Source of the DNA: an uncultured Clostridia bacterium | GTDB lineage: Bacteria > Bacillota > Clostridia > Oscillospirales > Acutalibacteraceae | Reading direction: 5' to 3' | NCBI GenBank assembly: GCA_927362715.1 | Contig: CAKMIX010000004.1 | Location: forward strand, 1 to 64,000 | DNA length: 64,000 nt | Shown here: piece by piece, positions 13,794-40,622 of the stretch | How positions within the stretch are numbered: the stretch's first letter is position 1 | Layout: every line of letters begins with the position of its first letter | Notes under the pieces: model-generated | The model's input: only the letters and a program-made list of their open reading frames with translations | Databases searched by the model: none | What the model was told of the DNA's origin: nothing | Made by a program: the position numbers and the translations under genes

Positions 13794-14891
13794 CTACTTT
13801 CGCTCGGGATCCGGTGGAAAGATACGGACGGGCGCGCCGGTGTACGGGGCTTTGTCCAATAGCGCACCATTCGCATATTGATAGAACCAGGCTTCACCGG
13901 TGCTTTCTTCGTCACGCACAATGGTTACGGTGTTCGTTTGGTGTGCATGCGCACGTAAAAAACGCGAAATCACGTCTGACCAATCAAAATCATCGGAGGA
14001 GATACGAAAATACATGTCGCGGCAGCCCTTGACCGTGTGATACAGACCGCCTAAACGGGCGCGAAGGAATTCGCTGTTGAGCTGCTCGATAACTTTTCGG
14101 TTCAGATGTTCTACGCTGTCCGGGTGGGTATAATACAGCTTTTCCATCACGTCCCAAATAAAAGAATAGGTTAAAAAAACATACGGCTTATTTTTGATCG
14201 CAAGCAGCAGATTCCGAACGGCGTTGCGGTGCGGGTTCAGCGACGCGCCGTAAGCGGCGATCAAATCCAGCACCAGTGCTTGCGTTTTTTGGCGTGCAGT
14301 GTGTTGGTACAGCCACTCGGCGGCGTAAAGGGTTTCTTCCACATTCTCTTCGTTGCCGTACAGATGCTGCAGACAGGGGATGGCTTTCCCGTCCCTGCGA
14401 ATCATCCAGGCCGTCGGCTCTGCATCGAATTTATCGTGTTTCCGCTCAGCCCTTTCGTTCAGTGCCTTTAAGGTCGTGCGAAAGACCATAATATTCGGGA
14501 AATAGCGCTCCTTTTCGTCAGCAAATATATCCATGCCGTTGTGCTCGAAGTGCTCTTGAATGGCCGCCGCCACAGCGGCGCTGCGGGACTGTCCGAATCG
14601 GCACTGGCAGAGAAAGGTCGTTGTATCCCGAAGGTGCTGATAGACGAAATCGGCAATCTGCTTGGCTTGCGTCTCGGAAAACAGGCGGAAAGCATATTTC
14701 CCGCAGTTTTCGTAATCGATGTCCGACAGCATAATATCGTCAAAATTAAGCCGCAGCATATGCGCCGGCTCATAGTCCAAAACCGGCGGCTCATCCCCAA
14801 AATCCCCGATGCTGATCAGAGCGGTGTTCGGTGCAAAAGGCTTATGCGCAAGCTGAATCAGGGCAGGCAGGCTGTATATTTGTACGTCCAT
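13794..14891 (-). CDS. Dual-specificity phosphatase-like protein with unknown C-terminal domain
   Basis: The start is ATG 14891 behind AAGGAGGTT. 365 aa. The first ~150 residues resemble a tyrosine/dual-specificity phosphatase: a strand-helix lead-in, then CQCRFGQSRSAAVAAAI, which contains the C-x5-R P-loop (CRFGQSR). An upstream acidic segment (FDDIMLSDIDYENCG) could supply the general acid. Residues ~160-365 match nothing I recognise; they are helical, then end with a WFYQYANGALLDKAPY beta segment. It lies upstream of, but separate from, the MoxR operon on the same strand. Phosphatase activity is inferred from the loop only. Confidence 0.65.
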   Translation of the reverse strand: MDVQIYSLPALIQLAHKPFAPNTALISIGDFGDEPPVLDYEPAHMLRLNFDDIMLSDIDYENCGKYAFRLFSETQAKQIADFVYQHLRDTTTFLCQCRFGQSRSAAVAAAIQEHFEHNGMDIFADEKERYFPNIMVFRTTLKALNERAERKHDKFDAEPTAWMIRRDGKAIPCLQHLYGNEENVEETLYAAEWLYQHTARQKTQALVLDLIAAYGASLNPHRNAVRNLLLAIKNKPYVFLTYSFIWDVMEKLYYTHPDSVEHLNRKVIEQLNSEFLRARLGGLYHTVKGCRDMYFRISSDDFDWSDVISRFLRAHAHQTNTVTIVRDEESTGEAWFYQYANGALLDKAPYTGAPVRIFPPDPERK

Positions 14892-15066
14892 GGCAAGAAC
14901 CTCCTTTTCGAATGGTATCAGAGTACCATAGCTGATGCCCTTAATTTGGGACATACGGGCGCCGTGTCGAAGTGAACAGGATCCTGCCGGGTTGCAATAT
15001 GCTGTTTTATTGCGTAGGTTCAAGTTCCTTCGTCCTGCTGTTCCCAATGACGTAGCTAAAGCGTAT

Positions 15067-15095
15067 TTGACTCTGCAGCTTTTTTTATTTATACT
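15067..15095 (+). promoter_or_regulatory. Promoter of the XRE-comF operon
   Basis: TTGACT (15067) and TATACT (15090) are separated by 17 bases, ending 27 bases before the XRE start codon. Confidence 0.75.
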
Positions 15096-15121
15096 ATAAA
15101 CAGAACCTTCGGAGGTGCGAT

Positions 15122-15364
15122 ATGGATACCGTTACTGCGATTCGCGACCGTATTTTGCAGCTTTGCGGCGAGCGCAACATTTCCGTAAACAAGATTGCAA
15201 ACCTTGCGGGCTTGCTGCCGTCGTCTGTGAAAAACATCCTGTACGGGAAAAGCCAAAACCCGAAAATCATTACGATAAAATCCCTCTGCGACGGCTTCGG
15301 CATCACGCTCGGGGAATTCTTTTCTACGCCGGAATTTGATGCGCTCGAGCAGGAGATCCAATGA
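15122..15364 (+). CDS. XRE-family HTH regulator
   Basis: An 80-aa protein that is essentially one helix-turn-helix domain: IRDRILQLCGERNISVNKIA, then NLAGLLPSSVKNIL and a C-terminal dimerisation helix. The ribosome site CGGAGGTG precedes ATG 15122. Its stop overlaps the ATG of comF (ATGA at 15361-15364). It is probably an autoregulator of this two-gene operon; small stand-alone XRE proteins of this type are common in Clostridia and have no fixed target. Confidence 0.85.
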   Translation: MDTVTAIRDRILQLCGERNISVNKIANLAGLLPSSVKNILYGKSQNPKIITIKSLCDGFGITLGEFFSTPEFDALEQEIQ

Positions 15365-16137
15365 AACCCGAGTCAAAAATTTCCGTGCTGTTCGACCGCC
15401 TCTTGTGTGCGTTCTTCCCGCGGCGCTGTGTGTATTGCGGCAGGCTGATCGTGCCCGAACGCACGGTCTGCGAGGACTGCGCGGCCAATCTGCCGCGTAT
15501 TACGGCGCCTGTCTGTTCCTTTTGCGGCTGCACAAAAGCGGACTGCACCTGCAAACAGAAAAAACTGAAATTTGACGCGGTCTGTGCGCCGTTTTATTAT
15601 GAAAAAGCGATCGAGCGCGCGGTGCACCGTTTCAAATTTGAAGACAAGGATTTTCTGGCCCGCCCGTTCGCGCAGGAGATCGCTTTGGCTATACACCGCG
15701 ATTTTGCACAGCAGCCGTTTGATGTTGTGACGTTTATCCCGTTTACCAAGCGGCAAGCACGCTCGCGCGCGTTCAATCCGAGCGAGCTTTTGGCGCGCGA
15801 GACGGCAAGGGCGCTCTCGCTTCCCTGCGTGCCGCTATTGGAAAAGCTGTTCGAGACTGAGACTCAGCACCACCTGTCGCAAACAGCGCGCACGGGCAAC
15901 GTGTTCGGCGTGTATGAAGTGAAAGACGCAGCCGCCGTGCAGGACAAGCGCGTTTTATTGATCGACGATATCAAAACCACAGGTGCGACGCTTTCAGAGT
16001 GTGCTAAGGTGCTTAAAATTGCGGGCGCTTCTTCCGTGCACGCCGCCGTGTTCGCTGTAGCGAAAAAGAAAAAAGGCAAAACGGCGCATGGAAGCAGCGG
16101 GAGCGGGGAGAATACGGGCAGTGGTAAAGGGCTTTGA
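15361..16137 (+). CDS. comF: ComF-family phosphoribosyltransferase-like protein
   Basis: 258 aa. The N-terminal zinc ribbon has Cys pairs CVYCG and CEDC, then CSFCG and CTC. The PRTase-like region contains VTFIPFTKRQARSRAFNPSE and the PRPP loop RVLLIDDIKTTGATL. ComF proteins are needed for natural transformation in several bacteria, helping ssDNA uptake or processing with ComFA/PriA; other late competence genes are not in the window. The C-terminus ends in a Lys/Gly/Ser-rich tail (KKKKGK... GSGENTGSGKGL) longer than usual, which may be a non-conserved extension. Confidence 0.9.
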   Translation: MKPESKISVLFDRLLCAFFPRRCVYCGRLIVPERTVCEDCAANLPRITAPVCSFCGCTKADCTCKQKKLKFDAVCAPFYYEKAIERAVHRFKFEDKDFLARPFAQEIALAIHRDFAQQPFDVVTFIPFTKRQARSRAFNPSELLARETARALSLPCVPLLEKLFETETQHHLSQTARTGNVFGVYEVKDAAAVQDKRVLLIDDIKTTGATLSECAKVLKIAGASSVHAAVFAVAKKKKGKTAHGSSGSGENTGSGKGL

Positions 16138-40062: not shown

Positions 40063-40416
40063 GGGGATGAAAGGATTTCGACGGGGATGCTGCACCGTGG
40101 TAAGCGAGCAGCGGTGGGGTACCGCTTAAAACAGCCTCAGTTTATGAAAATAAACGACAAAGATCAAAAAGTACTTCTTGCTGCTTAATTAGCGGCAAGC
40201 GTTCCTCCCGGAGCACCGCGGCCGGGGCAGGGGCGTCATCAGCGGTAAATGTGCACGGGCAAGCGCCTCGTAACCCGTCACACACAACGAGGCTACCGAA
40301 GCAAGTTGCCCGCCGTACGGTGACTTTCTAAGGGAATCTTTAACGCACGGCTACGCTCGTAGAAAGCTGCGGGAACGCGTTTTCGGACGCGGGTTCGACT
40401 CCCGCCATCTCCACCA
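40063..40416 (+). ncRNA. ssrA: Transfer-messenger RNA
   Basis: The 5' GGGGATG pairs with the 3' CATCTCC, followed by discriminator A and CCA. The tRNA-like 5' side (GGATTTCGACGGGG) and 3' T-arm (GGGTTCGACTCCC) are typical. The tag frame ends ...AAC GAC AAA GAT CAA AAA GTA CTT CTT GCT GCT TAA (40053 is upstream; the frame runs to 40188), giving a tag ending NDKDQKVLLAA; the resume codon is not certain. It rescues stalled ribosomes with SmpB, encoded just upstream. Confidence 0.97.
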
Positions 40417-40569
40417 AGCGACCCCGCTTCGCCGTCTCCCGGCGGGGCGGGGTCGGTTTGTGTCCTGAGGGCGCGGAGTCGAACAGGACGGCGCGCCACA
40501 GCGCGCGACCAACAGTCCGGTGGACTGTTGGTCAGTCCGCGGGCAGACTCCCGCCATCTCCACCAAGCG
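40417..40569 (+). repeat. Structured repeat element at the tmRNA 3' end
   Basis: A 24-base direct copy of the ssrA 3' end (40397-40420) recurs at 40546-40569. Between the copies are a terminator-like hairpin (CGACCCCGC / GCGGGGTCG), a 10-base inverted copy of the tmRNA T-arm (GGAGTCGAAC 40475-40484 versus 40393-40402) flanked by GTCCTG/CAGGAC, a GGCGCGC/GCGCGC hairpin, and a perfect 12-bp hairpin with GGT loop (40507-40533). The layout and the hairpin core AACANNNCGGTGNNNTGTT match the element at the tRNA-Trp 3' end (1771-1937). It is non-coding. Confidence 0.8.
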
Positions 40570-40582
40570 GCAAGCTGCCGCT
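40566..40582 (+). terminator. Small hairpin abutting the second tmRNA 3' copy
   Basis: AGCGGCA / TGCCGCT with a three-base loop; no T-run follows, so it may act with the next hairpin. Confidence 0.5.
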
Positions 40583-40586
40583 CCCA

Positions 40587-40622
40587 AGATGCGCACTTCA
40601 AAAGCGGGGTGCGCGTCTTTTA
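40587..40622 (+). terminator. Rho-independent terminator
   Basis: AGATGCGCAC pairs with GTGCGCGTCT and is followed by TTTAT, ending transcription of the ssrA region. Confidence 0.75.

Follow-up and report, generated by a model that had tools for sequence, protein, structure and literature searches.

A 149-bp insert behind the tmRNA gene of a Clostridia bacterium belongs to a set of units that copy parts of the RNA genes they follow

The tmRNA Gene and Its Downstream Unit

The window, that is, the whole 64-kb stretch of DNA analyzed here, carries a tmRNA gene (ssrA, tag DKDQKVLLAA) at 40063–40416 on the plus strand, as located with ARAGORN and Rfam. The gene is followed by a 149-bp insert (the ssrA unit), which is gene-less and has no room for a recombinase gene; all of the features below lie on the plus strand. 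The tmRNA T-arm, a stem-loop-stem (X) that the unit mirrors in part, is at 40389–40405, a position counted by hand on the sequence. A repeat search showed that GACTCCCGCCATCTCCACCAAGCG, the last 20 bases of the tmRNA plus AGCG (24 nt), running from the T-loop to the CCA end and beyond, is present exactly at 40397–40420 (copy 1) and 40546–40569 (copy 2), and at no third place in the 64 kb with up to 3 mismatches (chance mean 0.00). A first terminator-like hairpin (40419–40455) lies inside the insert and is absent at the empty site of a related genome, G024, described below. Copy 2 is followed by a native terminator region (40567–40622), which resembles the one found directly after ssrA in G024. 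The two terminator-like sites found at the ssrA unit compare with 1.5 in shuffled sequences.

Between the two direct copies, the repeat search found an inverted copy of the tmRNA T-arm (GGAGTCGAAC) at 40475–40484; its sole other place in the window is the T-arm itself, on the opposite strand, and a 10-nt inverted match of this kind has a chance mean of 0.04 per window. It is followed by a core that we call type 3 (40486–40538), a GGAC...GTCC stem around two hairpins, recognized by folding and by its likeness to units elsewhere. This core includes a perfect 12-bp palindrome (40507–40533) that is unique in the window even when up to 3 mismatches are allowed. When 40388–40570 was folded as DNA (z = −9.25), the tmRNA T-arm paired with its inverted copy, enclosing the terminator, and the GGAC/GTCC stem closed the two hairpins. 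The RNA fold of the unit gave a z of −9.79. The 24-base direct copy, the 10-base inverted copy and the hairpins between the direct copies, all of which had been noted in a preliminary description of this DNA, are present and beyond chance.

The same architecture was found by sequence comparison at 1699–1937 on the plus strand: a tRNA-Trp T-arm (1699–1715), a CCA end at 1726, a terminator-like hairpin, an inverted T-arm at about 1780–1792, a core of another type (type 2) and a second copy ending at 1937. The likeness between the two sites, already pointed out in the preliminary description, is real, but the host there is only a fragment: ARAGORN detected no tRNA-Trp in the window, which has just the 3′ part of the gene, ending at 1726. 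The intact tRNA-Trp is on contig C10. Near the fragment, 70–771 encodes the C-terminal piece of a large serine recombinase (zinc-ribbon). We infer that the fragment site is the far end of an island, the other end of which is perhaps on C10.

Units behind Other RNA Genes

In the genome from which the window comes, 33 tRNAs passed the search and, together with ssrA, made up a set of 34 genes. Four of them, ssrA, Val(cac), Gly(ccc) and Arg(tct), have a copy of their last 20 nt (19–20 of 20 matching) 109–176 nt downstream. The remaining genes scored 14 or less, and Thr(ggt) has no downstream sequence. The genome has one unit each behind ssrA, Gly and Arg and two in tandem behind Val, plus the one at the Trp fragment. 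The two tRNA-Gln genes, ttg and ctg (L050, L064), are followed by a terminator and then an inverted host T-arm, and neither locus has a second 3′ end or a recognized core.

Across the genus, units of three core types were found to follow ssrA and tRNA genes for 14 amino acids, often in tandem, with four units at one locus (L122). The type-1 core gave 70 matches in 19 of 59 genomes, all within the genus, and these include 49 distinct host-core pairs in which the core follows an intact RNA gene of the same strand; the hosts are tmRNA, Ala, Val, Gly, Ser, Glu, Lys, Leu, Gln, Tyr and Thr. The first type-1 units start 40–64 nt past the RNA end, apart from one at 132 nt in a gapped array and one at 229 nt behind a tRNA-Tyr. 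A further 19 type-1 units are without an intact RNA upstream: 12 are dispersed, 2 are at masked or island-split ssrA loci, and for 5 no intact RNA gene was found. Most of the dispersed copies have TTTATTTTACCATAA-like arms on their flanks, the arm taking the part of X in the succession X, inverted X, core, X, which is that of the other units. Clean empty sites for one dispersed copy are present in G018, G032 and G005. Some dispersed copies (L095, L096, L129–L131, L187–L216) abut, as judged by eye, an apparent sigma-A promoter on the other strand, the −10 box of which is the repeated arm (TTGAAA-17-TAAAAT in L197, TTGAAT-17-TAAAAT in L190); the dispersed copy between ispF and its neighbor does not belong to this group.

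The type-2 core, that of the tRNA-Trp site of the window, gave 70 matches in 26 of 36 genus genomes. Among the matches examined, which were those in 30 loci and 20 fetched stretches, an intact RNA precedes the core in 38 of 57 rows (Trp, Lys, Ser, Pro, Leu, Arg, Gln, Glu, Met and Val). Type 3 was found behind ssrA (in the window, G003, G012 and G019), the tRNA-Gly(ccc) of the same genome as the window, a tRNA-Tyr end (G012) and a tRNA-Gly end (G025).

The exact type-1 pattern was present in 21 stretches of a GTDB contig set, all titled uncultured Bacillota of the Clostridia type, and had no match in viral contigs. At the 53 usable RNA genes of a genome of the same order and another family (G043), there is no inverted T-arm and a single direct 3′-end copy, which is probably the neighboring tRNA-Ser. 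A Rfam search of nine loci at E values up to 1 left the units unmatched and reported only tRNAs, tmRNA and sub-threshold chance matches.

Match between Units and Host RNAs

The preliminary description had proposed that each element copies the RNA next to which it sits, and most units bear this out. The inverted copy was fitted strictly best by the host T-arm, out of 23 T-arms, in 33 of 49 units and tied in 6, with some host ends lacking CCA counted as misses; the mean longest inverted match was 11.7 for the host and 6.2 for other T-arms. For type 2 the match is weaker, the host T-arm being strictly best in 13 of 38 units and tied in 14 of 38. The inverted copy at ssrA varies with the host: GGTAATCGAA and GGTACTCGAA stand opposite TTCGATTACC and TTCGAGTACC, and GGTAGTCGAA and GGAGTCGAA opposite TTCGACTACC and TTCGACTCCC. 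The second direct copy was detected (at most 3 mismatches over 14 nt) in 39 of 49 type-1 units and is missing in 10 of 49. In 22 of the 39 its start lies in the T-loop, 21–25 nt ahead of the CCA end, and in 17 it is shorter; in 24 of the 39 the identity stops no more than 10 nt past CCA.

The match is not uniform. The inverted match of the tmRNA unit of the window (10 nt) is no longer than that of the best other T-arm, and the tRNA-Gly(ccc) unit of the same genome lacks an inverted T-arm match (5 nt). Mismatches to the host are retained in L035 and in tRNA-Ala units with GGGAGCGAACC. The tmRNA T-arm of G001 does not agree with the inverted copies, and all three units carry the sequence of a sister species. 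The preliminary description had left open whether the host 3′ end was captured on insertion or matched by rearrangement; since the G001 inverted copies keep the sister's sequence and not that of their own T-arm, capture is favored and continuous rearrangement less so.

The inverted copy spans the T-arm stem-loop and not the acceptor, for which the match was 5.74 with the own host and 6.06 with other hosts (53 of 62 units). An origin of the inverted copy by snap-back was considered and is unsupported for the acceptor part.

The Type-1 Core Hairpin

Among 52 distinct type-1 cores, 89% of alignment cells pair (94 cells are unpaired), 11 of 18 pairs are changed on both sides, and 59 double changes were counted against 14 single ones. 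In this count, the alignment was forced to the length of a smaller alignment of 32 chosen cores, and two further cores could not be trimmed. The 32 cores are a part of the 52 trimmed ones, and the 20 dropped include poorly paired ones; in this smaller set, 91.6% of cells are paired in one hairpin, with 48 double and 3 single changes. On four of five measures, the observed value was not reached by any of 500 shuffles of the 32 cores; on the fifth, the number of pair types, 190 of the 500 reached it. For comparison, the predicted structure of the genus tmRNA gave 195 double and 129 single changes. As judged from these alignments, the type-1 core is a hairpin whose pairing is maintained by compensating changes. 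The pattern hints at a DNA-level constraint on the core or at its templated repair, the cells not being independent of one another, and selection on RNA could produce the same compensating changes. The DNA-level argument is weakened because the full core set gives 59:14 and not 48:3.

GCGNAGC forms a very stable DNA mini-hairpin. It is present in 43 of 50 type-1 right halves (shuffle maximum 12), which is a hint only, because the right halves are related.

Filled and Empty ssrA Sites among Relatives

The 560-bp ssrA stretch was searched in 59 genomes, including the one under study, and matches were found in 50. In G024 the CCA of the tmRNA runs straight into the GCGGCAAGCTGCCGC terminator that is found after copy 2 in the window, so that this empty site has a single 3′ end, as the preliminary description had predicted. 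The site is filled with the same type-3 element in G003, G012 and G019. In these three genomes the DNA beyond copy 2 differs and looks foreign, and none is found between the two copies; the arrangement named in the preliminary description as contrary to its reading, an island between the two 3′ ends, was thus not seen there. Since G024 is empty and G003, G012 and G019 are filled, the ssrA element is an insert. G025 has no unit behind ssrA and no second 3′-end copy within 8.4 kb; the DNA after its ssrA begins with an apparent mobile-gene end, and a more distant unit may still exist.

In a tree of 29 ssrA loci, 13 have a unit (8 of type 1, 1 of type 2 and 4 of type 3), 15 have none within the fetched 1.5 kb, and 1 is masked. 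The tree, which was built without L045 (masked) and without G005, G009, G018 and G026 (ssrA not fetched as a locus), requires 7 state changes, the masked locus being counted as a state, and places G025 beside G003, inside the type-3 group. Units at ssrA thus come and go among sister genomes.

At ssrA of G009, a stretch of about 15 kb that includes a serine recombinase lies between the tmRNA body and a unit, but the unit itself is present; 310 bases behind the T-arm are masked. Two side observations were made at these loci. A stretch beginning with ATTGGACGAACACC is common to L021, L022 and L060, where it follows the ssrA unit of G003, the ssrA of G025 and the second Val copy of the genome under study; it is possibly the end of a lost mobile gene. 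The G003 assembly has two tmRNA matches (contigs C22 and C20), 94% and 88% like that of the window, which could be due to contamination.

Recombinases near the Units

Serine-recombinase islands occupy the same RNA 3′ ends as the units, and the units are without such genes. L173 has Resolvase, Recombinase and zinc-ribbon domains at 14497–16047, and a zinc-ribbon recombinase piece is also present in L175. Among the nearest downstream ORFs of type-1 loci (20 of 32 scanned), no recombinase family was found and 6 of 20 had no Pfam family; the scanned neighbors are ordinary or unnamed genes. The suggestion in the preliminary description that the element itself is part of island traffic finds no backing in these 20 of 32 ORFs. 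The Y1 transposase (PF01797, E 0.001) had no match in the genome under study or in G001, G012, G022, G025, G026 and G032, all of which carry units and are incomplete assemblies. It was rejected as a moving agent, as its presence does not track that of the units.

Comparison with E. coli TLRs

The tRNA-linked repeats (TLRs) of E. coli were first described in 1978. In its available text, PMC8144298 (2021) opens with no known function for them and then gives evidence for three; it counts 22 TLRs at ten loci, in each of which 18–19 bp repeat exactly the 3′ end of the tRNA or rRNA gene that precedes it. They include the tyrT/tyrV repeats (rttR/tpr, Rfam RtT RF00391) and RrA/RrB/RrF. The E. coli TLRs and most of the genus units alike lie directly behind an RNA gene and have a copy of its 3′ end at the end of the unit. 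There are one to five TLRs per locus in E. coli, and one to several units per locus, at several loci per genome, in the genus. The rrnB TLR lies with terminators T1 and T2 at a spacing of 150 bp, and the K-12 tyrV copies are at +159, +337 and +515 (178 bp spacing).

The loci behind K-12 lysQ and lysV (L346, L347) have a terminator-like hairpin, an exact 13-nt inverted T-arm, a core and a copy from T-loop to CCA, and the other K-12 units examined have inverted T-arm matches of 5–10 nt only. The K-12 loci were chosen as likely TLR loci, so that the 11 of 48 found there is not a rate. The inverted T-arm of the lysQ and lysV TLRs goes unmentioned in the available part of PMC8144298. The RtT model (RF00391) found the E. 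coli repeats and had no match in the genome under study, and similarity to the genus right halves was above that of every one of 60 shuffles in the case of lysW, but not for tyrV, lysQ or argV. In the genus, unlike in E. coli, tmRNA, which has a tRNA-like 3′ end, is also a host, and one core type is also found away from RNA genes. In the sequences compared, the anatomy is common to the genus units and some E. coli TLRs and, because the copy of the neighbor's 3′ end is the TLR hallmark, the genus unit would belong with this known, unexplained kind.

Discussion

The units match their hosts over many RNAs, have boundaries at the T-loop and the CCA end, and occur in tandem. We consider the chances about even that the ssrA unit is a TLR-like, non-autonomous hairpin DNA that a trans-acting enzyme inserted at the T-loop. 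The insert would enter the ssrA T-loop and bring with it a terminator-like hairpin, an inverted host T-arm and a hairpin core, and the host segment from T-loop to CCA would end up on both flanks. With boundaries at the T-loop and CCA, the host RNA would be whole after insertion. The unit may move as folded DNA, single-stranded or cruciform, and the enzyme might join it at the T-arm, TTCRA being present in the T-loop of all 34 RNA genes of the genome. The inverted T-arm could let the folded element rebuild a double-stranded T-arm site; integron attC sites rebuild their double-stranded site on folding. Recombination between direct copies would then let tandem arrays grow and units be lost. No enzyme for the movement was found in the search for the Y1 transposase or in the scanned neighboring ORFs. 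It also counts against this reading that a plain att-type insertion leaves one core matching so many RNAs unexplained.

Other known systems are alike in part. Integrative elements that attach at tRNA T-loops have an identity block from the T-loop to the 3′ end and keep the RNA gene whole. The genus units likewise have a T-loop-to-CCA identity block, but they are about 150–200 bp, have no integrase and use one core type for many RNAs. Integron attC cassettes are tandem units with a palindromic site around variable hairpins, and the resemblance is in shape only. REP/RAYT and IS200/IS605-type elements have small compensated hairpins and dispersed copies, whereas the genus units sit behind RNA genes and several of their carriers have no Y1 transposase match.

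A possible but doubtful alternative is that the unit is a kept regulatory RNA, read through from the host gene, in which the 3′-end copy guides RNase processing and the product is an sRNA or modulates the host RNA, a role that has been put forward for E. coli RrA/RrB/RrF. The strong RNA fold, the compensating changes in the core and the two terminators around the unit, as in rrnB, would agree with such a role, as would the reported transcription of the rrn TLRs in E. coli and their binding to Hfq and CsrA, at least in the portion of PMC8144298 available. However, CsrA binding is predicted in the same portion for RrA/B/F and not for 19 other TLRs. Absence of a unit within 1.5 kb at 15 of 29 ssrA loci, with sisters that differ, and the 12 dispersed type-1 cores with no RNA host also argue against it.

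It is quite unlikely that the units arose by local template switching, in which replication through the hairpins of RNA 3′ ends makes inverted and direct copies with no mobile element. Template switching makes reverse-complement copies and mends stems (PMC8794818, available text), double changes outnumber single ones in the core, and the T-arm pairs with its own inverted copy around a terminator. Nevertheless, the same cores lie behind different RNAs, type 1 is also at non-RNA sites, one of which has clean empty sites, and mismatches to the host are retained. If the inverted copy had arisen by snap-back, an inverted acceptor would be expected, and no trace of one was found in the acceptor matches given above. 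Template switching is thus disfavored for the core and possible for the copying of the inverted T-arm. Finally, despite the serine-recombinase islands at the same sites (L173, L175 and 70–771 of the window), it is very unlikely that the unit was left by an integrative island at ssrA, either as an excision scar or as a shrunken remnant, since units recur in tandem, their cores are common to many RNAs, and in G003, G012 and G019 the other DNA is outside the unit.

In a wider form of the mobile hairpin reading, which we regard as rather unlikely, TLRs from E. coli to Clostridia would be one class of selfish hairpin DNA whose folded site recombines at the T-arm common to tRNAs and tmRNA and takes on the T-arm and 3′ end of the gene entered, while copies with AT-rich arms would use a second kind of site outside RNA genes.

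That a unit copies the 3′ end of its neighbor is known already as the hallmark of E. coli TLRs, in the available account (PMC8144298). What the present analysis adds is a lineage of the Clostridia type, tmRNA as a host, the inverted T-arm as a common part, the occurrence of related cores at places without an RNA gene, and units that come and go at a single site. With numerous units in a second, distant lineage, one site found empty and sister genomes that differ, the origin of TLRs becomes testable, and the units of the genus let a kept RNA be told from selfish DNA. The common parts now named (the T-loop-to-CCA copy, the inverted T-arm and the hairpin core) provide a search template. They also call for caution, in that repeats behind tRNA and tmRNA genes are not necessarily island scars.
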